A stretch of 64,000 nt of DNA. It comes from an uncultured Bdellovibrionales bacterium. GTDB lineage: Bacteria; Bdellovibrionota; Bdellovibrionia; Bdellovibrionales; UBA1609. Of the stretch, positions 41,353 through 59,159 are shown one piece after another. Within the stretch, counting starts at the first letter, position 1. Each line of letters opens with the position of its first letter. The DNA is taken from assembly GCA_903833275.1 (NCBI GenBank), contig CAILEP010000031.1, forward strand, positions 62,001-126,000. Direction: 5' to 3'. The translations under genes were made by a program, and so were the position numbers. The notes under the pieces were generated by a model. It made no database searches. It was not told the DNA's origin and worked only from the letters and a program-made list of their open reading frames with translations.

Positions 41353-43137
41353 TTGCGAATCGGCTTTAATACACCTTGGTTAGTGAAGAGTGATGGGCGC
41401 GTTGTCGGCCCATACCTCGAGCGCCAGATTGGTGATTTATTGCGCGAGCATGTACTTCGCCCGATTGACGAAGTGGCACGCCCCTGTGGTCGTTGGAACT
41501 ATCTTCGAGACGAACCCTCATTTGCAAAAATGATTGAAGAAATTCGCTTGCGCGGGCTTCGAAATCTTGACGACACCACGACAAAGAACGGAGACCTTTC
41601 CGATATCACGCGCACCGAGTCGATCTCGCAAACCGAACCAGATGAATTAACTCAAGAGATCACACAATTTCCGAATGTCAGTGCGGTCGGCGCACAAGAC
41701 GTGATGTTTCATAGTATCGAAGAGCCACAACGTGCAAGCCCGCGGTCGAGTGGCGAGTCCTTTACCCATGACGGCGATCTTCTCGTTAAACTTCGCGCTT
41801 CGCAAGCCACGCGGTGGGTATGGGCCGTGTCGACGATGGTGATTCTTCTCACACTTGGTTTCGTGGTCTTTCGGCAATTTATTGCAATCCCGATTCAAAA
41901 CAAATCAGAGCTTGATCAGAGTACGACTGCGGGCATAGAGGCTCTTGAAACCGGAGATTACACTCGTGCTACCGAATTGTTTAATCGGGCCTACGCTCTC
42001 GACCCGAAAGATCGAAGCATTTATCTCTATCTCGGCATTTTAAAAATTCAAATTGAGAATCAGGCCTTTCGTGGCCGTCAGCTACTTGAGCAATTGCGCG
42101 CTGATGGCAATCGAGATCTGAAGCAGGTTTTGACCGGCATAGGCCTAGCTTATCTTAAAGAGGGCGATTTAAAGGCGGCTGAAGATTCGTTTAAAAAATC
42201 GCTCGAAATCGACCCGTTATTTCAATACGCGCTTATTAATCTTGGAGCAACTGCCGTCGCGAGTGCCGATTGGACCAAGGCCAATAACCACCTGAAAGTG
42301 GCCCTTCGAGACGGCAGCCATGACGGTGCAGAAATTTTGCTGCTGGCCGACGTTGTTGGTCATATTTTTGAGCAAACAAAAGATAAAACATCAATTGAAG
42401 CAGGGATTAAGAGCCTCAACGAATTCAAAGCGCGAAATTTTGACTATCGGGCCGAAACCCTAATCGCCGCGATGTACTTAGAGATAGTGGCCGGCGATAA
42501 GTCGAAGGTTTACCCTCAGATTGACGAATTTCTTGAAATGGATTTTTCGCTCACGGAAAATCATAGACACACACTCTTTGTACATCGCGACCAAATCGGT
42601 TGGACGCAGCTATCGCAGTGGTGTCTTAAGGCCACTCAAGATCTGGATCCAAGCTCTCACGTCATCGCAATGGAGGCCGTTTGTTTGCTAAAGGCCGGTG
42701 AAGTCGCAGAGGCTACACGAAAGATAGACGATGCTTTGGCTCAAACACCCAAAGACCCATTGGTACTGGCCGTCGCGGCTCACGTCCTAACAGAGACAAA
42801 TGCGAACGAGCGAGCGGTCGTGAGTCTTGAGAAGGCAATCGAGTTCGACAAAGAGGGGCATTGGTTGCAGCCGCTTCGGCAAAAAGCCCGCGTCTGCCGC
42901 GCTCGGGGAGATCATGACTGCGAGCGCGATACTTTCAAAGAAATTCTAGTGCACGAGCCTGGCGCTTTGCAGGCTCTTGCGGGCCTTGCCCGAATTATGA
43001 TCGAAGAAAAAAACCTACCAGAGGCTAAAAAATATTTCGGCCAAGGGCTTCGCGAGTCTGAGAGCTACCGGCCTTTCTTTGCGATTAATAAAACGATTTC
43101 GCAGGCTGAAGATCGTGAGAAAGCCCGTGGGCTATAA
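41353..43137 (+). CDS. Membrane protein with N-terminal GYF-type domain and periplasmic TPRs
   Basis: A 594-residue protein. Residues 1-65 match a GYF_2-type module (WLVKSDGRVVGPYLERQIGDLL...RWNYL). A hydrophilic linker follows, then one TM at about 155-175 (WVWAVSTMVILLTLGFVVF) and at least eight TPR-like helical repeats (for example ALETGDYTRATELFNRAYALDP). The GYF part would be cytoplasmic and the TPRs periplasmic. The TTG start has a strong ribosome site (TGAGGGGG). GYF domains occur again at 48315 and in Myxococcus GltJ, so a link to gliding is possible, though it sits after purH, not in the gliding locus. Confidence 0.85.
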   Translation: MRIGFNTPWLVKSDGRVVGPYLERQIGDLLREHVLRPIDEVARPCGRWNYLRDEPSFAKMIEEIRLRGLRNLDDTTTKNGDLSDITRTESISQTEPDELTQEITQFPNVSAVGAQDVMFHSIEEPQRASPRSSGESFTHDGDLLVKLRASQATRWVWAVSTMVILLTLGFVVFRQFIAIPIQNKSELDQSTTAGIEALETGDYTRATELFNRAYALDPKDRSIYLYLGILKIQIENQAFRGRQLLEQLRADGNRDLKQVLTGIGLAYLKEGDLKAAEDSFKKSLEIDPLFQYALINLGATAVASADWTKANNHLKVALRDGSHDGAEILLLADVVGHIFEQTKDKTSIEAGIKSLNEFKARNFDYRAETLIAAMYLEIVAGDKSKVYPQIDEFLEMDFSLTENHRHTLFVHRDQIGWTQLSQWCLKATQDLDPSSHVIAMEAVCLLKAGEVAEATRKIDDALAQTPKDPLVLAVAAHVLTETNANERAVVSLEKAIEFDKEGHWLQPLRQKARVCRARGDHDCERDTFKEILVHEPGALQALAGLARIMIEEKNLPEAKKYFGQGLRESESYRPFFAINKTISQAEDREKARGL

Positions 43138-43867
43138 TTTCACTCCGCGCGCCTATTCTCCTTCCGAATTTCGTAGCCTAATATTTATTCTATTCGCCAT
43201 TTTGTGGGTTGGGGGTTGCAAAAATGAAATTGGCGGCAAGGTTGATTACGCCCCTGGGCTTGTCGAAAAAACGAGTAAAGAGTTTTTAATACCACGCGAT
43301 TTAAGAGAGTCGATTGAAAACGATTATCTGGCGTATATTAGAAAAGAAAACATTAAAAATGTTTTGCCCGATACTGAAATACTGTCTCGGATCCCTCGCG
43401 AGTTTCTTGATATCGACTTATTTTTTCGTAGTTCTGCGCCAGGGGTTCTTACCGATCACACGCGGTTTTCGTTACCAAGGGGTGGCGGAGAAATCGATCT
43501 AAAGAATTGCGTGAAGGGCAAAAAGGGCAGTTTCTATCTTAACTATCAGGTTAAGCGAACCCATGACCCGAATGTGAAACCTAAAAGTTTGCATGTTTAC
43601 TTTTTAAGCGAGGTGCGACCACGTAAGATTGGTGGGGAGCTATTCGGTGCCGGCTGCTATAAGTATATGGATATCACCAAAGTGATGGAGCATGCCAATG
43701 AGGGTGAGGGTTTGCAACTGAATGCGACCGACCATCGCTACTTGCCTGTGATTTCTGGAGTTTTGTATTTTGTTGATTTCGACCCTGAACGAAAAATCTA
43801 TTTAGCAGCCGTAAGAGTTGTTGATTCGCGCTATGGCGACGAACAATGTGCGGAGCCAATTAACTAA
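43115..43867 (+). CDS. Lipoprotein of unknown function
   Basis: About 250 residues from GTG 43115. A signal sequence ends in lipobox WVGGC at about residue 35, after an unusually long N-region; GTG 43127 would shorten it. The mature part has no family I recognise (FSLPRGGGEIDLKNCVKGKKGSFYL; HVYFLSEVRPRKIG). It overlaps the GYF-TPR gene by 23 bases and lies 2 bases before the Nudix gene, so they are one transcription unit. Confidence 0.7.
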   Translation: MRKPVGYNFTPRAYSPSEFRSLIFILFAILWVGGCKNEIGGKVDYAPGLVEKTSKEFLIPRDLRESIENDYLAYIRKENIKNVLPDTEILSRIPREFLDIDLFFRSSAPGVLTDHTRFSLPRGGGEIDLKNCVKGKKGSFYLNYQVKRTHDPNVKPKSLHVYFLSEVRPRKIGGELFGAGCYKYMDITKVMEHANEGEGLQLNATDHRYLPVISGVLYFVDFDPERKIYLAAVRVVDSRYGDEQCAEPIN

Positions 43868-46121: not shown

Positions 46122-46337
46122 GTTGGGCCGAATCGGTGATCTCAATCTGAGACGCCGTCAGTTCAAGTCAAAAAAGCCTGTCAGAATAATCGACAAAAAA
46201 AATGACTTTCGAGGCCGCCAATTGCTCGCCTAAAATGTCACCGAAATTGCTAAGACTTTTATCAAGTTAAAAACTTTGCTGGCCGATAGGCCTGATGAGA
46301 TAGGGCAACGAGAACAATGGCCCTCTCGGGAGTTACC

Positions 46338-47060
46338 ATGGAAGTCGTATTAAGAGTTCTGGTGGATTATAAGATCGTCGACATATGTATCGGCGCTGTA
46401 GGGCTCTTTGGTCTCTACCTTATGTTCGACCGATTTAAGGCTTTGTTTTTTGACCTGGCTTTACCCACTGAACAGTTTATGAAACAAGTCAGTCAGATGG
46501 TGGAGCATGACAAGATCGAAGAAGCGATTACGTTTTGCGCGGCAAACGAAAGCAAACCACTGGCTTACGTCGCCAAAAGAATTCTTGAAAGAGCTGATCG
46601 CGAAAATGAAGCCATCGATCATGCGCTCGATATTGCCGCAGCAGAGGTTGCGCCAAAACTGACTAAAAATCTTGGCCATCTAGCGATGGTGGCAAACGTG
46701 GTAACTTTGATCGGTCTTCTCGGCACAGTAACGGGTCTCATCGTGGCCTTTAAGGCAGTGAGTTTCGCTGATGTATCGCAGAAACAGACTCTTCTTGCTG
46801 AGGGTATATCAATTGCAATGTCAGCGACAGCAATGGCGTTGATGGTGGCGATACCGACAATGTTTATCTACTCGTTTTTGCACGCTCGACAAACTAAACT
46901 TTTCTCGGATATCGATCTTTATTCAAACAAAATTATCGAGACCCTGAAGGCGCGTCATGTTGCCCCGTTCAAGGCTCATAACGTCTATCCAAATGGAATG
47001 CGCGCCGAAGCGGTTTCTAAGGGCAAATTGCCACCCGCACCGAATGGTAAAGTAGCGTAA
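46338..47060 (+). CDS. aglR: TolQ/ExbB/MotA-type channel protein of the gliding motor (AglR-like)
   Basis: A 240-residue three-TM protein. TM1 is near 8-25; TM2 and TM3 (VANVVTLIGLLGTVTGLIVAF; ISIAMSATAMALMVAIPTMFIY) have the Gly/Ala/Thr-rich face of TolQ/ExbB proton channels. ATG 46338 has a GGGAG ribosome site at 7 bases, better than ATG 46317. It is followed by two ExbD/TolR-like genes, as in the Myxococcus AglRQS proton-driven motor, and then by Glt-like genes. TolQ and ExbB cannot be excluded on sequence alone; the neighbours decide the call. Confidence 0.85.
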   Translation: MEVVLRVLVDYKIVDICIGAVGLFGLYLMFDRFKALFFDLALPTEQFMKQVSQMVEHDKIEEAITFCAANESKPLAYVAKRILERADRENEAIDHALDIAAAEVAPKLTKNLGHLAMVANVVTLIGLLGTVTGLIVAFKAVSFADVSQKQTLLAEGISIAMSATAMALMVAIPTMFIYSFLHARQTKLFSDIDLYSNKIIETLKARHVAPFKAHNVYPNGMRAEAVSKGKLPPAPNGKVA

Positions 47061-47090
47061 CGGTATCTTGCGAACTAGAGGTAAGAAGCA

Positions 47091-47624
47091 ATGAGTTATC
47101 ATCGCCGAGCAGGGGATGCAACTTTCGAACTGAACTTGGCACCATTTCTCGACATTATCGTGTCGATCGTGCCAATGCTATTGCTGAGTATCGCATTTGT
47201 GCAAATTAAAATGATTGAGGCTCCGACCCCGCAAGTGGTGACCCAAGACCAAGTAAAGGCGCCGCCGAAACCCGAAGCCACGCTTACTTTACATGTTTCA
47301 AAAAAGACCGGCTTTCAATTTGAAGTCGACGACAGTGGTAAGAAGCAGAACACCAATGTTAATAATGTAACTGGGCAATTTGATATGGATGGCCTCGTGA
47401 CATCCGCGATTGCAATTAAGACCAAATATCCACAAATCACGAAGCTTCAGTTGGCTCCTGATAGCGACATTGCATTTGATGATCTTGTTAAAATCATGGA
47501 CCGAGTTCGTGAAAAGCCTCAAAGCCAGCGGGCGGCGGCTTCGTTTACCGACAAGGCCGTTGATGCCAAAGCAGAAAACCGACAGTTGTTTCCGGACATC
47601 GTTTTCTCGAGCGTAGGAGGTTAG
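47091..47624 (+). CDS. ExbD/TolR-type motor protein (AglQ/AglS-like)
   Basis: A 177-residue protein with one N-terminal TM carrying the proton-accepting Asp21 (LAPFLDIIVSIVPMLL), equivalent to TolR Asp23, then a periplasmic domain (about 55-150). Two different TolR-like proteins with one TolQ-like protein is the hallmark of the AglRQS motor. The 3' end is one base from the next gene. I cannot tell which of AglQ or AglS it is. Confidence 0.85.
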   Translation: MSYHRRAGDATFELNLAPFLDIIVSIVPMLLLSIAFVQIKMIEAPTPQVVTQDQVKAPPKPEATLTLHVSKKTGFQFEVDDSGKKQNTNVNNVTGQFDMDGLVTSAIAIKTKYPQITKLQLAPDSDIAFDDLVKIMDRVREKPQSQRAAASFTDKAVDAKAENRQLFPDIVFSSVGG

Positions 47625-47625
47625 T

Positions 47626-48141
47626 ATGGCCGCGCGAGGGATGCGAAAATATCTAGACCGTCGAGCTTCTGGTAATTTTAAAATTCAGATCACCTCAATG
47701 GTCGATATGTTTATTATTCTTTTGGTGTTTCTTCTTAAGAGCTATTCGACCAGCCCGGTCAATATCACTCCTAACGACAAACTGCGTTTGCCCCAATCAA
47801 CATCAGCGGTTGACCCAATTGATGTTTTGAAAATCATTGTCTCAAAGACCGCCGTGTTTGTTGAAGATTCGAAAGTCGCCGACATTAAAGGCGGCCATGT
47901 AGACATTTCAAGCGTCGACAATACTGACCCACAATTTATTCGCCCACTTTTCGAAGAGCTTGATAAAAAGGCCCAACACGCAAAAGACTTGGCGAAGGTA
48001 AATGAAACAGTTCAATTCGATGGCAAGGTTCTTATGCAGGTTGATAAAGATCTGCCCTACGCCGCGCTTCAACAGATCCTTTACACCTCTATGTTGGCCG
48101 GCTATTACGATGTTAAATTTGCGGTGATGACTAAAGATTGA
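47626..48141 (+). CDS. Second ExbD/TolR-type motor protein (AglQ/AglS-like)
   Basis: A 171-residue protein with a basic N-terminus, a TM with Asp27 (ITSMVDMFIILLVFLL) and a periplasmic domain. A GGAGG ribosome site overlaps the end of the preceding gene. It is clearly diverged from its neighbour, so they are not a recent duplication. After it comes a 173-base gap before the PilZ gene, where a separate promoter could lie. Confidence 0.85.
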   Translation: MAARGMRKYLDRRASGNFKIQITSMVDMFIILLVFLLKSYSTSPVNITPNDKLRLPQSTSAVDPIDVLKIIVSKTAVFVEDSKVADIKGGHVDISSVDNTDPQFIRPLFEELDKKAQHAKDLAKVNETVQFDGKVLMQVDKDLPYAALQQILYTSMLAGYYDVKFAVMTKD

Positions 48142-48314
48142 TGTAGTCACTAAGTTAACAGTCGCTCTAAAGCCATCACGGGCCTCGAATTCGAAATTTT
48201 TCGTAAATAAAATAGACACCTCGTCTCATAAAGAGAATCTCAAAACTGACTTTAGTCGATAGCGATTTAAACCGATAATATGATTGAGTTATTATATTTT
48301 TCATGGGGAGAGCC

Positions 48315-49166
48315 ATGCAGACGAAATACTACGTTTCGCATTCTTCGCAACAGATGGGTCCGTATTCAGTGGACGAAATAATTTCATTTGTCGGTGAGGG
48401 CACGCTATCGCCGCTTGATTATATTTATGACGAAGAAAAAGCGGATTGGCTGACTTTTGTTGATCACCCACTTTTGGCAGAAAAGGTAAAAGCGTTGAAG
48501 CCGGCGGCCCCTCCAAAGAATAGCGAAAAAGGGGCGGAGGCAAAAATACACAAGGCTCAGCCCAAGAAGGGTAAAGCGGGCGACTTATCGCCTGAACTGG
48601 CGAAGCCAATGGCTCATGAGTGGTTCGTACTCAAGGGCGAAAATAAATTTGGCCCTTTCGCATATATCGACGTAGTGAAAATGCTCCAGCAAGGGGCCGT
48701 TTTTGAATTTGATTTTGTTTGGCACGAAGGTATGGATGGTTGGCATCGCGTGGCTGAAACTGGCGACTTTGCCAGAGATCAACTTAAGCAACTTAAAGAA
48801 TCGGCGATGCCTGAAATCAGTGAAGTGTTTTTCAGGCGGCGGTATCGCCGAGTTAATTATGGCGGCACAATTATTGTTCACGACAATAAAAAGGTCTGGA
48901 AGGGCCAAGCCATGGAAATCAGCGAGGGCGGGGCGGGCGTTGTGATGGACAATGCGATGCTTATACCCGGCCAAGAGTTGTATCTGCATTTTAAGCCGGG
49001 CGATGGCGTGCCACCATTTAATGCCATTTGCGAAGTTGTCAGTAAAGAGTTCGTGAGTGATTTACGCAATCGAACGGCGCCGATTAAATATGGATTGAAG
49101 TTTAAGACATTAAGCTCTGAAACGCAGAAGTTTTTGAAAGATTATACAAGAAAGTCGGCGGCTTAA
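48315..49166 (+). CDS. Double GYF-type plus PilZ-domain protein in the gliding locus
   Basis: About 283 residues from ATG 48315 (GGGGAG ribosome site; ATG 48303 is less likely). GYF_2-type module 1 is near 1-55 (YYVSHSSQQMGPYSVDEIIS), module 2 near 105-155 (HEWFVLKGENKFGPFAYIDVV), and a PilZ domain near 172-280 with RRRYRRV at 174-180 and the second motif EISEGGAG (Ser203, Gly206). These are the usual c-di-GMP contact motifs, with Glu in place of the first Asp/Asn of the second. No TM or signal, so cytoplasmic. It lies between the motor and the Glt-like genes, and may couple c-di-GMP to gliding (inference). Confidence 0.88.
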   Translation: MQTKYYVSHSSQQMGPYSVDEIISFVGEGTLSPLDYIYDEEKADWLTFVDHPLLAEKVKALKPAAPPKNSEKGAEAKIHKAQPKKGKAGDLSPELAKPMAHEWFVLKGENKFGPFAYIDVVKMLQQGAVFEFDFVWHEGMDGWHRVAETGDFARDQLKQLKESAMPEISEVFFRRRYRRVNYGGTIIVHDNKKVWKGQAMEISEGGAGVVMDNAMLIPGQELYLHFKPGDGVPPFNAICEVVSKEFVSDLRNRTAPIKYGLKFKTLSSETQKFLKDYTRKSAA

Positions 49167-49251
49167 AAGCTGCCACTGGCACTAAAATTTAGCTTACGCT
49201 CATAAAACTGTATGTACTCTGAGAGCGCTGTTGGACGTTGATAGGGTATAT

Positions 49252-52200
49252 ATGGCATTTGGGCCTGCAAATTTTATTTTATTTCTCGCGACTGTTCTGG
49301 TCGCTATTGGGGCTGCGCCGCTTGCTGTCGCTGAGACCAAAGAGAAATCTAAACAAGACAACGGGCTCTCAGACCTGAAATACAAAGCCGGCGACGAACG
49401 TGGCAATGACGTTCGAGCTCTTAAGGCTGAAGTTCTAATCGCCCAACAAGAAACCAAAGCTCTTGATCAGATCCAAAAGTTGTTAAAGAAGTATAAGGGC
49501 ACCCCGCTTGAGGCTGACCTCTTGTTGAGACTCGGCGAGCTCTATATGCGCCGATCAAAGACCGACCGCTTTCTCGAAATGCATCGAGAAACGGAAGACG
49601 TCATTAGATTCGCCCCGAACTTAGTTAAGAGCGCGGCCTCTCGAAAACAAATAGAAGCGGCGATCGCTGTTTATGATTCGTTAGAAAAGCGCTTTCCGAA
49701 TTATGAAAAGCTTGATTCGGTGCTTTTTGACAATGCCTTTGCTAACGAACAGGTTAATAACTACGAGAAAGCCGAGAAACTCTTCAATAAATTAGTTACG
49801 ACTTTTAACGAGTCTCCACTTCTGCCCGACGCGCACCTGGCGCTCGGTGAAATTCAGTTTTCGAAGCACGATTTCAAAACTGCATTGACCCACTTTCAGG
49901 CAATTCGAAAGTACCCTGAGTCGCACATCTACCCATATGGTCTCTATAAAGCCGGTTGGACATTCTATAATCTACGCGACGCAAAAGCGGCGATGCACGA
50001 GCTAGAAGATGTGATTCGCTACGGTCGTTATGTGAAAGAGCAGGGCATTGACGAGAGGCTTGATTTAAGAAGAGAAGCGCTACTTGATTTGGCGCTATTT
50101 TACGAAGATATCGGCGAAGCCAATCGGGCCTATGCCTACTTGGCAGAGCAAGCCGGTGACCTTGATGTTTCGCCTGTAGTGATGCGACTCAGCGATCTCT
50201 ATAAGCGGCATGCGCGCGATAAAGACATTCTCTTGGTCTTGAGCGATCTTGCTCGTAAGAAGCCCATGAGTGCTTATTTGCCTCTAACTTATGTGGATTT
50301 GATGAGTGCTTCAGAGAATCTCAAAAAGCATCGCGACGTGGTCAGTTTGCTTGGTAGCTTCTTTGAGACCTGCGAGCCCACGGGCGACTGGTCAAAGGCG
50401 CAAGCCAAGACCCAACCGAAAGAGAGCCCTTTGGCTCAAGCTTCAGAAGGGATGCCCGCCAATGCTACAGCTAGCGATCTTTGCCGGCATACGTTTAATC
50501 GCATTGCTCTCGGCTATGCCAATCGTTGGCTTAAAGAGTGGAATAAATACCCACAGCAAACCGATTTGGCGGATGTGGCCGAGCGCGCTTTTGAAATATA
50601 TCTAAAATCAGATGGCACCTCTGACGAGTCGGGGCGTGCGCGCTTTGTATACGCCGAACTTCTTTTTAAACGTGAAAAATTTCGCCCTTCGAGCGAGCAG
50701 TATGCCATCGCGGGCCAATTGACCCATGATAAAAATCTTGGTCATGATTCGCGCTATTATGCGCTGATAGCCCTAGAAAAGGCCGTCAAAGACAAATGGT
50801 CGGATAAAGACGAGCAGCTCTTTCAAAATCTGGCCAAAGAGTATTTGACCAAAAACGCGGATGGCAAGTATGCACTCGATGTTCAATTTAAGGTCGGGTT
50901 CATCGCCTATGAAAAGGCTCGTTACGACGAGGCGGCCCCCGTATTTCTCGCTCTCGGCGCGAAATACCCACTTCAAGAGAAGGGTCTTAAATCTCAAGAT
51001 CTCTACCTCGACATTCTTAATATCAAAAAAGATTTTGCCGGTCTTCGCGAATACGCCTTAAATTTGCGAAACAAAACGACTGTGGCCGAGCGCAAAGACA
51101 AAATGACGAAGCTTTATGAAGAAGCCTATTTTTCAATAATCCAGGGCATGGAGCAAAAGGCCGACTATAAAGGTGCGGCTGAAGAATATGATAAGTTTGC
51201 AAAGATCAACCCAACCTCAAAGTTGACGCAAAAAGCGCTTTGGAATGCGACTGAGTTAAACTTTAAGACCGGCGATCTCATGGCCGGGGCGCAGGCCGCG
51301 ATTCGATACTTTGAGAAATTTCCGACATCGAAAGAGGGCCTAGATGCTTTGCTTAAAGCAGCACAAACATATGAAGCCATCGGTCAGCTGACTGAGGCCG
51401 CAAACGTGTTGATCAAGCTTTCGCAGGTAGATAAAGAATCTAAAACAAAGTGGCAGCTATTGGCCGCCGATTTCTATTTGCTGAGCCATGATGTCAAGTC
51501 GGCGAGGCCGATCTATGAAAACCTAAAAAAATCGGGCTCGGCCGAAAATTCGTTTCGCTCACTTACCCAACTCGAACTTATCGCAAGAGAAGAAAAGAAC
51601 GTGAAATTGCGCGAGCAGTATCTGAAAGAAATCTCAGAGAGCGGGCGTGAGCCGCAGTCGAGTCTTGCCGCCGTTTATTTTGTTGAAAAGGCGTATGGCG
51701 AAGGTCGCATAGAAGAAGCCTTTAACCTGGCCAAAAAAGTCGTTGGCGAAGAAAAGAAGGGTGCTGATCGAGGTGCTTTAGCAAGGGCCCGCCTTATTCA
51801 GGCGAGAGTTTTAGCAAAAGAATTTCATCAGCAGAGTGTTAAGACCTCAATTGAACGTGTTCAGGCCGTGCTCGTTTTAAAAACCGAAAAACTCAGCCGC
51901 GCTCAGGTGGCTTTTCAGTCGGCAGCCAACTACGGCGACGCCTACGTAGCCGTTTTAGCTTACAGAGAACTTGCTGATTGTTATTTAGCGTATAGTGAGG
52001 CCTTGCATGCGATGCCCTTGCCTCGCGGAGTGCCTGATGCCGAGGCCAACGTTTTTAAGTCTGAAATGGAAAAACTGGCAATCCCGATGGAAGAAAAAGG
52101 CATCGACACAAAGATGCAGGCCCTGGTTTTCGCTCGGCAACTCGGTACACACGAAGATGAGATCGTTAATATCGAAACCGAGCTTAAGAAGTTGAATCAA

Positions 52201-52281
52201 TCAGTTGTTAAAGTTAGCGAAGGGCAAAGAGTTCACCCCGCCATGCTTGTAATGCCTCGCTTCGAAGGCAAGGGGGCGTAA
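49252..52281 (+). CDS. Very large periplasmic TPR protein (GltD/AgmU-like)
   Basis: About 1,009 residues from ATG 49252. An N-terminal signal peptide or anchor (FILFLATVLVAIGAAPLAVA) is followed by many TPR-like helical pairs across almost the whole length (for example ADLLLRLGELYMRRSK; DAHLALGEIQFSKHDFKTALTHF). It resembles the large TPR scaffold of the Myxococcus Glt complex, which spans the periplasm and joins the motor to outer-membrane parts. Size, position and order fit that role, but TPR proteins are hard to assign by eye. It lies one base before the next gene. Confidence 0.78.
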   Translation: MAFGPANFILFLATVLVAIGAAPLAVAETKEKSKQDNGLSDLKYKAGDERGNDVRALKAEVLIAQQETKALDQIQKLLKKYKGTPLEADLLLRLGELYMRRSKTDRFLEMHRETEDVIRFAPNLVKSAASRKQIEAAIAVYDSLEKRFPNYEKLDSVLFDNAFANEQVNNYEKAEKLFNKLVTTFNESPLLPDAHLALGEIQFSKHDFKTALTHFQAIRKYPESHIYPYGLYKAGWTFYNLRDAKAAMHELEDVIRYGRYVKEQGIDERLDLRREALLDLALFYEDIGEANRAYAYLAEQAGDLDVSPVVMRLSDLYKRHARDKDILLVLSDLARKKPMSAYLPLTYVDLMSASENLKKHRDVVSLLGSFFETCEPTGDWSKAQAKTQPKESPLAQASEGMPANATASDLCRHTFNRIALGYANRWLKEWNKYPQQTDLADVAERAFEIYLKSDGTSDESGRARFVYAELLFKREKFRPSSEQYAIAGQLTHDKNLGHDSRYYALIALEKAVKDKWSDKDEQLFQNLAKEYLTKNADGKYALDVQFKVGFIAYEKARYDEAAPVFLALGAKYPLQEKGLKSQDLYLDILNIKKDFAGLREYALNLRNKTTVAERKDKMTKLYEEAYFSIIQGMEQKADYKGAAEEYDKFAKINPTSKLTQKALWNATELNFKTGDLMAGAQAAIRYFEKFPTSKEGLDALLKAAQTYEAIGQLTEAANVLIKLSQVDKESKTKWQLLAADFYLLSHDVKSARPIYENLKKSGSAENSFRSLTQLELIAREEKNVKLREQYLKEISESGREPQSSLAAVYFVEKAYGEGRIEEAFNLAKKVVGEEKKGADRGALARARLIQARVLAKEFHQQSVKTSIERVQAVLVLKTEKLSRAQVAFQSAANYGDAYVAVLAYRELADCYLAYSEALHAMPLPRGVPDAEANVFKSEMEKLAIPMEEKGIDTKMQALVFARQLGTHEDEIVNIETELKKLNQSVVKVSEGQRVHPAMLVMPRFEGKGA

Positions 52282-52282
52282 T

Positions 52283-53281
52283 ATGAAGCTGTATCATTTG
52301 TGCTCTCTGGCTTTGCAAAAGTGGATTGTTGTCGGCGCAATGGGCTTGCTCGTTGGTGCATGCGCATCTGACCCAGCTCGCGAAGCTGGCAACCTTGGTG
52401 CTAACTCACCATCGAGCTTAAGCAATCTGTCGGCGGCGGCTCAGGCGAAGTTTTTTTCGGGTCGTTTGTTTAGTGATCTTAAGAGCGAAGAATGCCCGGT
52501 TGGCCCAGCCGGCTGGCAGAGAGAAAGTCTAGCAAAATTAAGTCGAGCGGCAGCGGCGTGCGCTCAGTATAAGAAGAATGAACGCCTTGAGCAGATTGCC
52601 AATCACCTCGCGCGCACATTTGGCAACGAACCCTGGGGCGCTTTCTACTTAAGTGTAGCCGCCGAACAGAGAAGCGAGCTTCCGCGTGCGTTATGGATGA
52701 GCGAACTTGCGCTTAAAAAAGCGTCGAAGGTCGGCCTGCTCTATTACCAAAGAGGTCGCATACATTGGGCCCTTGGCGAAATTGCTGCCGCCGTTGCTGA
52801 TTACAACGAAACTCTCAAGTTCAGCCCGCGTCTGACTGACGCTCATATAGTTTTGGGCCAATTGGCCACGCGCAATCAAGATTTTAAGTCAGCTCAGGCC
52901 CACTATGCGGCGGCCGTTGATATTGAGCCTGATAACCACAGCGTGATTGTGGCTCTGGCAGAGACCAATTTTAGCCTTGGTCAAACAAGAACAGCCATCG
53001 CGCTATACGAGTCGGCCGTTGGTTTAAGCCCAAGCAATTTAGATTACCATTTTCGCTTAGCCGGGCTGTATGAAGTCCATCAAAAAGATTACAACCAGGC
53101 CCTTACCGTTTATCGACGAATTAAGGCCCTAATGGCAGAAAGCAAGTCATCAGGGGATAGTATGGTAATGGATGTTAACGAGAAAATTAAAAAGCTTGAA
53201 GCGTTAGTTACGCCCGAAACCAAAGCTCCGACAAAAGTCATTAGCGCCGCTCAGCCGGCAAAAGCACAGGTGAAAAAATGA
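52283..53281 (+). CDS. TPR lipoprotein (GltE/AglT-like)
   Basis: A 332-residue predicted outer-membrane lipoprotein with lipobox LVGAC and at least four TPR units (YYQRGRIHWALGEIAAAVADYNETL; AHIVLGQLATRNQDFKSAQAHY). In Myxococcus AglT (GltE) is a TPR protein of the gliding complex. Its position next to the large TPR protein and FHA protein agrees. It overlaps the next small gene by 4 bases (ATGA). Confidence 0.78.
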   Translation: MKLYHLCSLALQKWIVVGAMGLLVGACASDPAREAGNLGANSPSSLSNLSAAAQAKFFSGRLFSDLKSEECPVGPAGWQRESLAKLSRAAAACAQYKKNERLEQIANHLARTFGNEPWGAFYLSVAAEQRSELPRALWMSELALKKASKVGLLYYQRGRIHWALGEIAAAVADYNETLKFSPRLTDAHIVLGQLATRNQDFKSAQAHYAAAVDIEPDNHSVIVALAETNFSLGQTRTAIALYESAVGLSPSNLDYHFRLAGLYEVHQKDYNQALTVYRRIKALMAESKSSGDSMVMDVNEKIKKLEALVTPETKAPTKVISAAQPAKAQVKK

Positions 53282-53520
53282 AAAAATTAATTATCGTCCT
53301 ACTTTGTATTTTTGCGACAGTCGCTTGGGCGGATGATAAAAAGAAATCGTCCAAAAAAACTCAAGAAGTTAATTTCGAAGGCGCGGATGTTGACGGTGTG
53401 GTGCGCTCACCCGACGGTGCCTATTTGTCACAGAAAAAAGGTATGAAGTTTTTGCCGCTTTACAATGTGAAGAAAAATTTTGAGCGCGATATTAAAAGTT
53501 CGGTGGAGTACGTGAGGTAG
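53278..53520 (+). CDS. Small exported gliding-associated protein (CglF-like)
   Basis: An 80-residue protein with signal peptide (cleavage near AWA-DDK), a Lys/Ser-rich stretch and a conserved-looking tail (GVVRSPDGAYLSQKKGMKFL; NFERDIKSSVEYV). Size, export and position, between the TPR lipoprotein and the FHA protein, suggest a counterpart of Myxococcus CglF, a small gliding protein. I recognise this mostly from context, so it is tentative. It is coupled to both neighbours. Confidence 0.6.
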   Translation: MKKLIIVLLCIFATVAWADDKKKSSKKTQEVNFEGADVDGVVRSPDGAYLSQKKGMKFLPLYNVKKNFERDIKSSVEYVR

Positions 53521-53522
53521 TC

Positions 53523-55022
53523 ATGAAGCATTTCGAGCTCGAGCTAGAACATCAGTATAAGTCGAAGTTTCTCGGTCGCCGCCGCGTTGCGGCCCGCAAG
53601 AAGCTTCTTGTGGTGGGCAGCTCGCGCGAGGCCGACATTCGCCTTCTTGGTGATGATGTCAGCGCCGTGCACGCGTACATTCAAAATAATGATGGCGTTT
53701 GGTCTATTTCTGATGCCGGCAGCGAGCGTGGCACGTGGCTCGATAAAAAGCCGATTGTTGCGCATGCAATCAACGAGGCCACTGCCGTTACAATTGGTGG
53801 CCACACACTTCGATTAACCCCTCACGCCATTGAGAAATCACTTTTTACCAAAGAAAAAATGGCGCCAGCTAACGGTTCGTCAAAGGGCGAATTGTTTCAT
53901 CAAGTTATTATTCGAAAGCACGGTCACACCCATTCGACGGAGCTGCTTTCACCCGACGAGACTTTTGAATTTATTGCTGAAGGCCAAGTGCGCAAGTTGG
54001 TTCCGCCGAAAGCCGGTGAGGTCGTTCGGTCCGATATTGGGCACTTCGAAATTGTTCAACGAATGGTTAAAGGCGAAACTTTAAATTCTTACGGCGAGTC
54101 TTTTGGGTCAATGATTCGTAACCCTGAAATGCGTGCCCCCTTATTGGCCGCAATTCTATTTTTTCTAGGTATGGCTCTGGTTATTATTGCCATCCCTAAG
54201 CATCCGAACCAAGAGCTAACAGAATTAAAACCTGACAATAAATACAATCGAATGGTTTTTGATGCAGAATTAATGAAGAAAAAACGCGAGCAGGCGAAAG
54301 AAATTCGCAAAACCCTTATGGCCAAGTCGCCCCAGCCGCAACAGCAAAGTGCTCCGGCGGCCCAAATGCCAAGCCCCCAGAAGTCAGCGGCGCCAGCAAC
54401 AAAGGTTGTTAAAAATTTGAAGATGGAGCAGTTGAGTTCATTGCTCGGCAAAATCACCAAGCGCGCGAACACCAAGGGGCCGATGATGGTCGCTTTTGGC
54501 GGGGCACCTGAGTCTTCAAAAGGTCACGCAAGCACTGTCGCGGCGACGGGTAGCCTACAAGGCGTCGCCACCAACGTTGGTGTTGGCGGCAATACATTCA
54601 AAGTTGGCGCCATTGGCACGTCAGGTGTCGGCGGTGGTAAAGGCGTTGCAGGCACAGCCGGCCTTGCAAATGGGGCTGTCGGCAGTGGCACCGTCGGTAT
54701 TCTCGATGAAGAAACTGAAATCGAGGGCGGTCTCGACAAAGAAGTCATCGCTCGCGTCATCGCCGGCTATCTCGGCGAAATTCGTTTTTGTTATGAGCGT
54801 CAACTGAGTGCCGAGCCCGATATTTACGGCAAGGTTCAGTTGAAATTCTCGATCGATGCCGCTGGCATGGTCGCGAATCAAAGAGTTGGTTTATCATCAT
54901 TAAAAAGCGCCATGGTTGAGGGATGTATTCTGAGGCGCGTGGCAAGATGGAAGTTTCCGCTGCCAAAAGGCGGTACTGAAGTTCTTGTCACTTATCCGTT
55001 TATGTTTAAGGCCACCAACTGA
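53523..55022 (+). CDS. gltG: FHA-TM-TonB-like (AgmX/PglI C-terminal) protein, GltG-like
   Basis: A 499-residue inner-membrane protein. The N-terminal cytoplasmic FHA domain (about 20-105) has VVGSSREADIRL, DVSAVHAYI and DAGSERGTWLDKKP, so phosphothreonine binding is possible. A TM at about 207-224 and a Pro/Gln- and Gly-rich linker (about 260-400) follow. The C-terminal AgmX/PglI-type domain is at about 405-499 (IRFCYERQLSAEPDIYGKV; WKFPLP...VTYPF), related to TonB. It would transmit motor force across the periplasm, as TonB does. FHA raises the possibility of control by a Ser/Thr kinase such as the one at 8859 (inference). Confidence 0.88.
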   Translation: MKHFELELEHQYKSKFLGRRRVAARKKLLVVGSSREADIRLLGDDVSAVHAYIQNNDGVWSISDAGSERGTWLDKKPIVAHAINEATAVTIGGHTLRLTPHAIEKSLFTKEKMAPANGSSKGELFHQVIIRKHGHTHSTELLSPDETFEFIAEGQVRKLVPPKAGEVVRSDIGHFEIVQRMVKGETLNSYGESFGSMIRNPEMRAPLLAAILFFLGMALVIIAIPKHPNQELTELKPDNKYNRMVFDAELMKKKREQAKEIRKTLMAKSPQPQQQSAPAAQMPSPQKSAAPATKVVKNLKMEQLSSLLGKITKRANTKGPMMVAFGGAPESSKGHASTVAATGSLQGVATNVGVGGNTFKVGAIGTSGVGGGKGVAGTAGLANGAVGSGTVGILDEETEIEGGLDKEVIARVIAGYLGEIRFCYERQLSAEPDIYGKVQLKFSIDAAGMVANQRVGLSSLKSAMVEGCILRRVARWKFPLPKGGTEVLVTYPFMFKATN

Positions 55023-55086
55023 TTTATCAATTCAGTCGGTAGTTTTAGCATTGCGGGCGCGCTTTTAAGAATAAAAGGGGGGAACC

Positions 55087-55992
55087 ATGCGTTCTCAGAA
55101 GACATCTCTATGTGCAGCTAAGATCGTCAACTACGGTGCCGCTTTGGCGTTGTCTGTCGGGGTTTTCTCCCTAAGCTCAAATGCTTGGGCCCAAGCAGAC
55201 CAATACCAAGCAAAAAAGGCAAAGCCGGCAATCGCGGCCGACGCCCAGCCCGCCACTGGTACAAAGAAAACCGGGGCCGCTGCGGCCGCGCCAACTGAAG
55301 TGGCCAAGCCCGCCGATGCTCCCGCCGGCGACAAACTCGACATTAAAGATCTCGAGCAAAAATATTGGGCCCCGAAAGATACTGACTTCAGCGTCGTTCA
55401 AAATCGCACCTATTCAAAGACCAAGCGTTGGGCAGCCAGTGGATTGTTCGGCCCCATCGTCAATGACCCATTTAGCACGGGCTTTAATTACTCAGGTTCG
55501 GTGAATTACTATTTTGACGAACGGCAGGGTATTGAATTCATGTACATCAAAAATGACCTAAGTGACTCGAAGAACACTTCGGCGTTTAAGCACTTGAGTG
55601 GAGGCGGCACATTGCCAGACTTCAATCGTGACACCAGTTTCTATGGGGTCGCTTATAACTGGGTGCCTTTCTACGCCAAGATGAGTTTCTTGGGGCAAAA
55701 AATTATTTACTTTGATATGCAGATTTCACCACTCGTCGGTATAGCAGGTTACGATCAAATGACGGCCAATGGCCCGAGACCGCAAACCGCCTTTGCATAT
55801 GGGTATGACGTGACTCAATACTTCTTCTTTTCAAATAATTTCGCGGTTCGAGCCAATATTCATAATCACTATTACAGCGAAAAAGTAGTGAGCTACGGCA
55901 ATACATTGGTTCCGGCCGGAACAAGTCTTCGCACGGACACAGCAGATACCACGGTTTTTTTACTCGGCATCACGTACTTTTTTGGTAACTGA
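55087..55992 (+). CDS. Gliding-locus outer-membrane beta-barrel protein (GltH-like)
   Basis: A 301-residue protein with signal peptide (to about AWA-QAD), an Ala/Lys/Pro linker, and a barrel matching the myxobacterial-type outer-membrane barrel family: VVQNRTYSKTKRW, VNDPFSTGFNYSGSVNYYFDERQGIEF, ending LLGITYFFGN. In Myxococcus the barrel genes of the Glt cluster contact the substrate surface during gliding. A GGGG-rich ribosome site precedes ATG 55087. Confidence 0.82.
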   Translation: MRSQKTSLCAAKIVNYGAALALSVGVFSLSSNAWAQADQYQAKKAKPAIAADAQPATGTKKTGAAAAAPTEVAKPADAPAGDKLDIKDLEQKYWAPKDTDFSVVQNRTYSKTKRWAASGLFGPIVNDPFSTGFNYSGSVNYYFDERQGIEFMYIKNDLSDSKNTSAFKHLSGGGTLPDFNRDTSFYGVAYNWVPFYAKMSFLGQKIIYFDMQISPLVGIAGYDQMTANGPRPQTAFAYGYDVTQYFFFSNNFAVRANIHNHYYSEKVVSYGNTLVPAGTSLRTDTADTTVFLLGITYFFGN

Positions 55993-56012
55993 TTTTATTA
56001 ATGAGGTGTGTT

Positions 56013-58496
56013 GTGAAAACACGAAATGTAGTTCTAGTCGCAATTTTAAGCGCGAGTCTTCAGGCTCAAGCGGGTTATGTAGAATCTGCCGAGCGCGCCC
56101 ATGAGCTCAGTAAAGAAGTTGTGGCGGTGTTGATCGAAATCAAGCGTGAGGCCGAAACCGCCGTAAGCGGCTGGATGGCTGCGATCTCAGAACGGTTGAA
56201 TGGCAAAGACAGCTCGGTCGAAAATAAGGCCGCGGCAAAGCCGACAATCCCAACGAATCGTTCGATTGCCAGTGTGCCAAGCGCACCCTTAGCGCCCTCG
56301 ATCGAAAAACAAAATTATTCTCAGATTATTGATCACGCGAAAGCACAAGTGGCCGGCCAAGAGGCTGTGACGGTAGCAAGCCCCGGTCGCGCAGGCACGA
56401 GTGATCTTTCTAAAACAGCGGCAGGAGTGCCTACGATAGGTCTATCGAAATCTGAAAAGAACCAAAAGGCCGGTCTTGATATCGTGGTTAAAGCAATCCC
56501 ACGACTTGATATTGGCGTAGAGCGAACAATCAAAAAAACCGATTTCACCGTTCTTGACAAAAAAGTCGCTCTTGAATTACCCGCAAAACCAAAAGCATTG
56601 CCAACCCCAGAGCTGGTAGCTCAAAAAGAAGTGACAGCGCTGACCAAAGTGCCAGTTGCGGTGGTGGCTAAAGCTGAGCCTCCTAAGCGCGGTGACTTTC
56701 AGCTTGGTCAAATCGTCACTCAGAAAAAGGTTGACGATATTTCTCTAATGTTTGCCGAGACTCGCCCACTTTCTGAGCTCAAAGATTTTAAAAATATTTC
56801 TGACGACGAACTGCTAATGCTCTCGGGCACCTTGCTTTATGAAAAGAAAACCAAGTGTCATATGGTGGCTGGGCTTTTGAACGAACTCGCCAACAAGCCG
56901 GCCTTTTCAGAAGAATCAAATTTTTACCTCGGCATGTGCGCCCATAAGATGGGCTTTCACTCTGAGGCTGTTACTCGTTTGCTCAGAGTACTTCGCGCCG
57001 AATCGCCTGAATTTGCGCGCGAGTCACTGACAAGTCTTGTTGAAGATCTCCCTCGCGATCACGACCAAGAAGTCGTTGAAGTGATCAAAAATTTAAAAAA
57101 TAAAAATTTTGTCGCAGACGAAGCGCGCGACAGCATGAACTTTATTATGGCACGCAATGCTCATGCTCACGAAGCTTGGGGCGAGGCCGTTAGTTCAGCC
57201 GGGTCTGTGAGTGAAAAGAGCAAGCACTACGCAGACTCCCGCTATTATTTAGGGGTCGCTCAATTTGCCCAAAAGAAAGAAAAAGAAGCTGAAAAAACTC
57301 TTCTCGAGTTGCGCGCCTGGCTGCAAAAGAAGGGTGGGGCCAACAGCAACTTAGAAGCTCTTGTCGCCATCAATTTGGGTCGCATTCTTTTTATGCAAGA
57401 GCGATTTCAAGCGGCGCATGATGAATATATGAAAGTGCCGAAAGATCACCCGCTTTGGGTGCAAGCCCTTATCGAAGAGGGTTGGACACAACTGAGTTTG
57501 GACGACGCAGCAGGGGCTATCGGAAACATGTACTCGTTGCATTCTCCTTACTTCAAGTCGGTATTTATGCCCGAGTCTTGGGTCGTTCGAACCATTGGCT
57601 ACATTGATATTTGCCAATACGGCGACGCTTATCGAACGCTCTCGCGTATGGAGCTAATGCATAACAATGAGCTCATTAAGGTTCAAAACTATATGGCTGC
57701 AAGCAAAGAGCCGCTCAAGTACTACTCAACGGTTCGAAACTATATTAAGGCCAATAAAAGTGACGTTGATGTCGATGGTCTACCCGCACAAGTCATTCGT
57801 GAAATTGCCCGGCAGCGTGGCTTTCTGAATGCGCAAAATGCGCTGAATGATCTCGAAGACGAAACAGCACAGTACGGTCTTGTTTATAACATCATCAAAG
57901 CCGATCAGGTCGACAACTCGGTAAAGTTGAAGCGCACGCGTGATCGCCTGGCGAAGACCAAATTTGATTTGGCCAACATTAAAAAACACCCTGATCAAGA
58001 GCGGTTTCTTAACGAGTGGAGCGCACTCAAGCGCAACGACGAACAGCTCGTCTTGACCTACGTTTACCTTGAGGGCCTTTATGAGAAAGCGCGCCTTGGC
58101 TATTTGACCATGAAGTCAATCGGCATCGCCCGCATCGATAAAGAGAAAGACAAACTAAAGGTTGAAGCCGGCCATCAATTGGCACTCCACTTGAAGGATG
58201 TCAAAAAGCGTCTTGAGCAAATTTCTGAAGGCAATGAATTTTTGCGTTATGAGATTTTCGCGGGTAGCGGAGAAAATATTCGGTACCAAGTGGCCGGCGG
58301 GGCAACGGGTGAAACCAAGCGAATCCCGGCCAACATAAAGCCGCAGAAGATATTGAATTGGGAGTTCGACGGCGAGTATTGGGAAGACGAAATAGGCTCT
58401 TACCGTTCAGCTCTTAAAAACAACTGCCCGAACAGCAATAGATCTCGAGCCGCTCTCGAAGGGGCAGCGAAAACCACTGCCTCACGCGATAATTAA
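56013..58496 (+). CDS. Large periplasmic TPR-like protein (GltI-like)
   Basis: About 827 residues from GTG 56013, which has GAGG six bases upstream; ATG 56001 has none. A signal peptide (to about QAQA-GYV) is followed by a low-complexity Ala/Lys/Pro linker (about 60-230), then helical repeats (about 250-720) including HAHEAWGEAVSSA and ALIEEGWTQLSLDDAAGAI. No enzyme motif is seen. As with the other large TPR protein, it likely forms part of the periplasmic gliding assembly. It is 17 bases upstream of a ribosome site and the coiled-coil gene. Confidence 0.75.
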   Translation: MKTRNVVLVAILSASLQAQAGYVESAERAHELSKEVVAVLIEIKREAETAVSGWMAAISERLNGKDSSVENKAAAKPTIPTNRSIASVPSAPLAPSIEKQNYSQIIDHAKAQVAGQEAVTVASPGRAGTSDLSKTAAGVPTIGLSKSEKNQKAGLDIVVKAIPRLDIGVERTIKKTDFTVLDKKVALELPAKPKALPTPELVAQKEVTALTKVPVAVVAKAEPPKRGDFQLGQIVTQKKVDDISLMFAETRPLSELKDFKNISDDELLMLSGTLLYEKKTKCHMVAGLLNELANKPAFSEESNFYLGMCAHKMGFHSEAVTRLLRVLRAESPEFARESLTSLVEDLPRDHDQEVVEVIKNLKNKNFVADEARDSMNFIMARNAHAHEAWGEAVSSAGSVSEKSKHYADSRYYLGVAQFAQKKEKEAEKTLLELRAWLQKKGGANSNLEALVAINLGRILFMQERFQAAHDEYMKVPKDHPLWVQALIEEGWTQLSLDDAAGAIGNMYSLHSPYFKSVFMPESWVVRTIGYIDICQYGDAYRTLSRMELMHNNELIKVQNYMAASKEPLKYYSTVRNYIKANKSDVDVDGLPAQVIREIARQRGFLNAQNALNDLEDETAQYGLVYNIIKADQVDNSVKLKRTRDRLAKTKFDLANIKKHPDQERFLNEWSALKRNDEQLVLTYVYLEGLYEKARLGYLTMKSIGIARIDKEKDKLKVEAGHQLALHLKDVKKRLEQISEGNEFLRYEIFAGSGENIRYQVAGGATGETKRIPANIKPQKILNWEFDGEYWEDEIGSYRSALKNNCPNSNRSRAALEGAAKTTASRDN

Positions 58497-58517
58497 TTTT
58501 ATAACAGGAGAAACTTT

Positions 58518-59159
58518 ATGAAAAAGCTAAGAAATATAACGGTCATCTCGATTCTGCTACTTGGCTCTCATGCCATTGCCAAAACCAATACTGAGCAGAG
58601 CATTAGTCAGCTGAAAACCAATGCTGAAAATAGCGAGGCCAATCACAAGCAGTACCAAGACAATCTTGATATTGTGAATAAGAATGTCGATCAGGCAGAT
58701 AAAGCGGTTAAAGAGCTTCAGAAGATGAAGAAGCAACTGATCAGCAATACCCAAAACGTAGACAAGAATAAGAAGGCCTTGGGCGAAATGGGTAAAGAGA
58801 TCGATCAGATGAAGTTAAAAGAGCAAGAAAAGGTCGCCAAAGAAGACAAGCAGATCGATGATGTCAGAAAGCTGCTCGAAAAGCTTGAGGCTAACAAAAA
58901 GAAGCGCCAAGAAAATTTGCAGGCCTACGGTCAAATGAAAGTGCAGCTCGAGCAAGAGCAGAAAGATTGGGACACTCAAGTTCTGCAAATGGCGACCTTG
59001 CAAAAGCAGCTCGATGAAAAAGAGAAAAAAGCTCAAGTTGAAAAGACCAACTGGCAAGCAAAGCGCAAAGACTACGAGAGCGAAACGCAGAAATGGGGCA
59101 GCAAAGCACAGAGCTCGCGCGACACCTACAACAAGATGAGCAAGCTCTCTGAGCAGTAA
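58518..59159 (+). CDS. Exported coiled-coil protein (possible GltF-like)
   Basis: A 213-residue protein with signal peptide (cleavage near AIA-KTN) and an almost continuous charged coiled coil rich in Lys, Gln, Glu and Asp (residues about 25-200), with no Cys or Pro. Last gene of the gliding run; a good AGGAG ribosome site precedes ATG 58518. Its position in the series suggests GltF, but sequence alone does not prove this. It could act as a spacer or a regulator of assembly. Confidence 0.65.
   Translation: MKKLRNITVISILLLGSHAIAKTNTEQSISQLKTNAENSEANHKQYQDNLDIVNKNVDQADKAVKELQKMKKQLISNTQNVDKNKKALGEMGKEIDQMKLKEQEKVAKEDKQIDDVRKLLEKLEANKKKRQENLQAYGQMKVQLEQEQKDWDTQVLQMATLQKQLDEKEKKAQVEKTNWQAKRKDYESETQKWGSKAQSSRDTYNKMSKLSEQ

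Follow-up and report, generated by a model that had tools for sequence, protein, structure and literature searches.

Does a run of motor and trans-envelope genes in an uncultured Bdellovibrionales bacterium constitute a gliding locus, with the AglRQS and Glt proteins of Myxococcus in one place, or a related machine? The window, that is, the whole stretch of 64,000 nucleotides analysed, carries on its + strand an eleven-gene set at 46317-59159 (AglR, AglQ, AglS, GYF-PilZ, GltD, GltE, GltF, GltG, a GltA/B-type barrel, GltC and a coiled-coil protein), which the original prediction had described as a compact, unified and perhaps ancestral Agl/Glt-like gliding locus. The analysis below suggests that the locus probably represents, in this species, the Bdellovibrionales operon called Bd1473-Bd1483 in Bdellovibrio bacteriovorus HD100, a paralogous branch of the Agl/Glt family whose motor is of the second Myxococcus type (M2), with surface- or biofilm-associated movement as its probable output.

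Gene content of the operon

Ten of the open reading frames (ORFs) in 46317-59159 encode proteins of 171-1016 aa and follow one another in the same direction on the + strand, separated by short gaps; an additional ORF of 80 aa (53278-53520) sits in the gap 5' of the FHA gene. Gene families were assigned with Pfam and NCBIfam profiles, and subunits are named as in Table 1 of Luciano 2011 (PMC3169522), where AglR is the TolQ-type protein and AglQ and AglS are the TolR-type proteins.

46317..47060, +: AglR-type (TolQ/ExbB/MotA) channel subunit, 247 aa; PF01618 6.8e-25; 396 bits against the window-type AglR profile, single copy; clusters with Myxococcus M2 AglR
47091..47624, +: AglQ-type (TolR/ExbD) subunit with the membrane motif N-x-x-P-x-x-D (here NLAPFLD); PF02472 5.2e-11
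47626..48141, +: AglS-type (TolR/ExbD) subunit with a membrane Asp (MVDMF) that is present in every relative examined; PF02472 8.1e-13
48303..49166, +: counterpart of Bd1482, a soluble protein that combines two GYF domains with one PilZ domain; GYF_2 2e-18, PilZ 1.2e-11, PDB 7z3c 7.1e-5
49231..52281, +: GltD-type exported TPR protein, 1016 aa; TPR and YbgF profiles; the window-type GltD profile matches the GltD of Bd0828-type, Nfs and Glt sets
52283..53281, +: GltE-type TPR lipoprotein, lipobox LVGAC; TPR profiles; weak match to NF033758 GltE (4.5e-7)
53278..53520, +: GltF/CglF small exported protein, 80 aa; NF033764 8.6e-9; motif RxPDGAYLxQKRG kept in the relatives examined
53523..55022, +: GltG-type transducer with an FHA domain, a low-complexity linker and a TonB-like AgmX/PglI tail; NF033760 GltG 1.6e-52 (C-terminal half), NF033768 tail (myxo_SS_tail) 9e-30
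55087..55992, +: outer-membrane beta-barrel (OMP_myx_plus) of the GltA/GltB family; TIGR04565 1.3e-17, 64 bits (cut-off 60)
56001..58496, +: GltC-type exported TPR protein, 831 aa; NF033756 GltC 4.5e-29, 87.7 bits in the genome
58518..59159, +: exported protein of 213 aa with a coiled coil; conserved across the order together with the operon

This inventory bears out the genes named in the original prediction: a TolQ-type gene, two TolR-type genes that each encode the membrane Asp, a GYF-PilZ gene, two large TPR proteins, a TPR lipoprotein, an FHA-TonB-like protein with an AgmX/PglI end, a barrel and a coiled coil, all on the + strand, together with a small exported protein that corresponds to the 80-aa CglF/GltF match. 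The start given there, 46338, is an in-frame ATG, but the ORF begins seven codons earlier, at 46317. The scores of the window GltG, GltC and GltE are all below the strict NCBIfam equivalog cut-offs, and GltD was assigned via a profile of relatives. Matches to the GltG, GltC and GltF profiles support an Agl/Glt-family operon in which the motor lies beside the trans-envelope core, as had been proposed. Of the core types present, GltC, GltD, GltE and GltG make up Group B of Luciano 2011, while GltA, GltB and GltF are shared by Myxococcales and Bdellovibrionales. The GltG-type protein has a single membrane helix near residue 207, and the coiled-coil protein has no counterpart in the Myxococcus clusters examined.

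GltA, GltB, GltC and GltK had been thought to lie outside the window. This holds for GltK, which was not found among the operon genes, but GltC and a GltA/B-type barrel are present. A profile of the window barrel built from relatives matches Myxococcus GltB (2.5e-14) and GltA (3.4e-14), the barrels beside gltC, both of which carry TIGR04565; identity with GltH was rejected because this profile reported GltA and GltB, not GltH. The operon contains one such barrel, not two. The predicted lack of GltJ extends beyond the window: no whole GltJ was found anywhere in the genome, where only its tail, its GYF domain and one linker piece match, never the full profile, and the GYF domain sits in the PilZ protein.

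A Tol-Pal or TonB-type system for envelope functions or nutrient uptake was weighed against an Agl/Glt identity. Both the channel subunits and the tail of GltG are distantly related to TolQR/ExbBD and TonB, and TonB-dependent transport was left as a possibility in an early paper (PMC2797640). The TolQ, TolR and ExbBD models score far below their cut-offs (TolQ 75 bits against 221, TolR 21 against 127), whereas GltG, GltC, GltF and the AgmX/PglI tail are matched. Moreover, AglR branches away from 14 TolQ/ExbB-type sequences, and no TolA, TolB, Pal or TonB-dependent receptor occurs among the operon genes. An identity as a Tol-Pal or TonB uptake system was rejected on the profile cut-offs and the AglR tree, and appears extremely improbable.

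An Rfam search of the window gave no match. Upstream of the operon lie a gene for a TPR protein whose N-terminus looks GYF-like by eye (41353-43137) and the gene that follows it (43079-43867); a few genomes (L069, L290, L063 and L058) have relatives of these genes close to their own copy of the operon.

The HD100 counterpart and its spread in the order

Four tonB/agl operons of HD100, Bd1473-Bd1483 among them, were listed in 2010 (PMC2797640). In the genome taken as HD100, the window-type AglR gene is found at 1,402,447-1,403,154, within the run VWA-like lipoprotein (353 aa), GYF-PilZ, AglR, AglQ, AglS, GltD and then GltG. This order matches the published Bd1483 (VWA-like), Bd1482 (PilZ), Bd1481 (aglR) and Bd1480 (aglQ) (PMC2277423, PMC3271064, PMC9140294), and the 353-aa ORF fits Bd1483, whose published insertion lies at position +1022 of the reading frame (PMC2277423). 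Three other sets in the same genome, near 0.40, 0.79 and 2.28 Mb, fit the order of Bd0412-0420, Bd0828-0838 and Bd2368-2377 (PMC2797640), and the positions of GGDEF genes in strain Tiberius are in rough agreement with the operon assignment. Thus, the HD100 gene order and the position of the Bd1483 insertion identify the window operon as one of the Bd1473-Bd1483 type, and the comparison with Bdellovibrio genomes that had been suggested finds the gene order kept, as it is across the order. The arrangement, which had been considered more unified than that of Myxococcus, is not new, as this layout was already known from the HD100 operons (PMC2797640) and from core-plus-motor clusters (PMC3169522); the new detail is the AglQ motif shift described below.

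Of about 54 genomes sampled from the order, 49 each yield a single strong hit (284-400 bits) to the window-type AglR profile, whose best score in the rest of the phylum is 227 bits. Window-type AglR is missing from five same-order genomes, as a looser search agrees, and a scan of viral contigs with AglR found no relatives. The genome taken as the epibiotic predator P. exovorus JSS (G043) is without a window-type motor and keeps one Agl-type set only. GltG-type proteins occur in all 60 relatives searched, mostly several in each. Motor and core are found together in 14 of 20 loci fetched around the GltG type of roughly 500 aa, with the motor 5' of the core in 13 and 3' of it in the remaining one (L064). 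Three loci hold a core without a motor nearby (L057, L062 and L063), and in two of those genomes (L057 and L063) a window-type motor is encoded on other contigs; one locus (L061) is cut by the contig end. Two others (L065 and L075) carry a short PilZ, AglRQS and GltG block with no GltD, GltE, barrel or GltC nearby. The GYF-PilZ gene mostly precedes aglR; among motor-linked loci, its position between aglS and gltD is seen only in the window and a congener (L069).

Linkage of motor and core was seen in all paralogous sets of the order examined, so that an ancestor in which they were linked is reasonable; core-plus-motor clusters have been described, and ancient linkages have been proposed to have been lost in Myxococcus (Luciano 2011, PMC3169522). 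The suggestion that the present arrangement is perhaps ancestral is compatible with this evidence, but linkage is labile even within the window operon type, where it breaks in some relatives, so that the window locus alone does not demonstrate ancestry.

Placement of the motor

A single genome scan, with a chimeric query that joined part of a Bdellovibrio GltC to the GYF piece of Myxococcus GltJ, provided the M. xanthus sequences. Strain AM003 has two AglRQS triads: the first, with an AglR of 245 aa and an AglQ of 162 aa, is M1 of Table 1 in Luciano 2011, and elimination leaves the second (MXAN_3003 region) as M2. A tree of concatenated AglR, AglQ and AglS (62 taxa, 524 columns) joins window-type motors to M2 at 100/100 and Bd0828-type motors to M1 at 95.5/98. 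An AglR tree rooted with the 14 TolQ/ExbB-type sequences gives the same two groups, at 99.4/100 and 90.5/97, respectively. Constraining window-type motors to M1 is 45.6 log units worse and is rejected (KH 0.0004, SH 0.0005, AU about 0), and constraining Bd0828-type motors to M2 is 42.8 log units worse (AU 0.0001); window-type motors as one clade without M2 receive weak support (38/65).

By these trees, the window motor is not orthologous to M1 and falls with M2 in the branch that is sister to the motor of Myxococcus gliding; M1 has its counterpart in the Bd0828-0838-type set, which this genome carries at another site. Bd0828-0838 had been named closest to aglRQS from its agl components (Luciano 2011, PMC3169522), and the motor tree agrees. 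At the level of sequence, the analysis establishes the gene identities, the orthology to the HD100 operon and the M2-type motor.

The equivalence to AglRQS-M1 implied by the original prediction is accordingly not upheld, and it is very unlikely that the window is the gliding locus itself, combining AglRQS and Glt of Myxococcus in one place. The gene set is full, GltF and GltC included, and the GltG-tail tree puts window-type proteins beside Myxococcus GltG/NfsG, with AU not significant. However, the motor tree rejects a grouping of the window type with M1 and assigns M1 a Bd0828-type counterpart, as in Luciano 2011, and within this genome the Bd0828-type set scores far higher than the window set for GltC (207 against 88 bits) and for full-length GltG (256 against 160 bits). 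The GltG-tail and GltD trees leave the closest Myxococcus set unsettled (AU 0.26 and 0.098 for the alternatives), and support in the GltC tree is weak.

The Bd0828-type set of this genome is found at about 247-259 kb of contig C31, and a third set is on contig C7. Directly after aglS of the Bd0828-type set, this genome (L048:6074-6961) and most relatives (L216-L226) carry another GYF-PilZ gene on the opposite strand. Bd0838, the AglS gene of the Bd0828-0838 set, is needed for prey attachment (PMC6561027). The genome also encodes an MglA that is 76% identical to Bdellovibrio MglA; in M. xanthus (L206, contig C76), mglA adjoins a paralogous GltC-GltD-GltE run.

AglQ motif, proposed mechanism and known systems

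In the alignment, all motors of the Bd0828 type (17/17), of M1 (3/3) and of M2 (3/3) retain the AglQ motif N-x-x-P-x-x-D, or at least its Asn and Asp positions, as does the window. Asp and Ala occupy those two positions (D-x-x-P-x-x-A) in 17 of 24 window-type operons, so that the membrane Asp has been lost and an Asp gained six residues earlier; among them is Bd1480 of HD100 (L287:5844-6401), which reads FELDLAPLLAVMV. The AglQs with D-x-x-P-x-x-A form one clade with 100/100 support. The AglS Asp is retained everywhere examined, and Ser replaces the AglQ Asp in 6 of 15 third- or fourth-type motors.

These patterns lead to the tentative proposal that the AglQ motif changed once within the operon family, from an ancestral N-x-x-P-x-x-D to D-x-x-P-x-x-A, while the AglS Asp was kept. 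If functional, the change would leave one canonical proton site and an acid displaced by about one and a half helical turns toward the N-terminal (cytoplasmic) end of AglQ, making AglQ and AglS non-equivalent partners. The window and HD100 would then be a natural pair for testing an AglQ-AglS heterodimer, which is listed as unknown in PMC9389320, and the aspartate shift would allow the division of proton work between the two TolR-type subunits of an AglRQS motor to be tested directly.

The PilZ RxxxR motif of the GYF-PilZ protein is conserved in relatives, and the sole PDB match of its second GYF domain is the GYF domain of Myxococcus GltJ/AgmX (7z3c). Because RxxxR is kept and the second GYF domain resembles that of GltJ, a soluble nucleotide-binding adaptor may take over part of the job done in Myxococcus by the cytosolic end of GltJ; Bd1482 has been proposed to be a nucleotide receptor (PMC3271064). 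The FHA domain of window-type GltG (53523-55022, protein residues 30-75) has Ser in place of the usual phospho-threonine-binding Arg after the first Gly in most copies (GSS instead of GRS), whereas Myxococcus GltG retains GR. A role as a phospho-threonine reader was considered and is disfavoured because of this replacement, which makes a structural role more likely.

By analogy with AglRQS-GltG and ExbBD-TonB, AglR, AglQ and AglS would assemble into a proton-driven inner-membrane motor that moves the FHA-TonB-like GltG. GltG would in turn pass force via the periplasmic GltD, GltE, GltF, GltC and coiled-coil proteins to the outer-membrane GltA/B-type barrel, which would shift surface material or pull on the substrate. 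Coupling of the motor to c-di-GMP or cGAMP may run through the PilZ domain of the GYF-PilZ protein, and coupling to partners through GYF. Operating next to the M1-type set encoded elsewhere in the genome, the machine would probably bring about movement associated with surfaces or biofilms.

Published data on the HD100 operon are in keeping with a surface- or biofilm-related machine, perhaps controlled by c-di-GMP. Insertions in Bd1481 or Bd1483 weaken biofilm reduction while halos are still made (PMC2277423); bd1480 is up on surfaces and down in non-gliding Bd0367 mutants (PMC9140294); and expression of the operon is raised during host-independent growth and lowered 30 min into predation (PMC2797640). 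The mutants found in the literature are insertions with a biofilm phenotype, and no clean deletion of a Bd1473-Bd1483-type operon combined with a gliding assay was found there.

A surface-transport machine of the same build need not move the cell: it could carry a polymer or adhesin over the surface, or serve attachment, while the Bd0828-0838-type set does the gliding. The Nfs machine of Myxococcus sporulation has this build and another job, and the AglR homologue MXAN_3003, which belongs to the second Myxococcus motor, did not interact with GltG or NfsG (PMC3858216). The separate set that corresponds to M1 in this genome, and the retention of one Agl-type set without a window-type motor in the genome taken as P. 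exovorus JSS, fit such a role as well. However, bd1480 expression tracks surface contact and the gliding state (PMC9140294), and Bd1481 insertions affect thick biofilms, not lawns (PMC2277423), which fits movement. A machine that does not move the cell is conceivable but rather unlikely, and surface- or biofilm-associated movement is the preferred output.

The gliding machinery of Bdellovibrio was called unidentified in a 2026 review (PMC13104615). The present analysis sorts the candidates: the bd1480 operon, used as a gliding marker in PMC9140294, is of the M2 type, and the counterpart of the Myxococcus gliding motor is Bd0828-0838. This sorting predicts which deletion should stop gliding.

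Among known systems, Bd1473-Bd1483 has the same genes in the same orientation, and with one AglR profile the window scores 396 bits and HD100 356 bits; the Tiberius copy is identical to the window proteins at about 44% for AglR, 42% for AglS and 32% for AglQ. The PilZ gene lies between aglS and gltD in the window and one congener but before aglR in HD100, and its product has two GYF domains in the window and apparently one in HD100. The AglQ motif is N-x-x-P-x-x-D in the window and D-x-x-P-x-x-A in Bd1480, and the window is without the VWA-like Bd1483 gene directly upstream.

M2 (MXAN_3003 region) resembles the window in its motor triad, which clusters with the window type, but no Glt-type genes lie within the 14 kb fetched around it. 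M. xanthus AglRQS (M1) and Glt (G1 and G2) have in common with the window the GltC, D, E, F and G types, a GltA/B-type barrel, a motor triad and the GltJ GYF domain, yet they occupy three separate loci; whole GltJ is not found here, and the window motor is off the M1 branch. The Nfs sporulation machine of M. xanthus has a paralogous core (barrels and the GltC, D, E and G types) but uses AglRQS, without a motor of its own (PMC3858216). Bd0828-Bd0838 and its copy in this genome also combine barrels, GltC, GltD, GltE, GltF-like, GltG and AglRQS in one run, but differ from the window in gene order and in having two barrels, a longer GltG (681 aa) and a motor that groups with M1.
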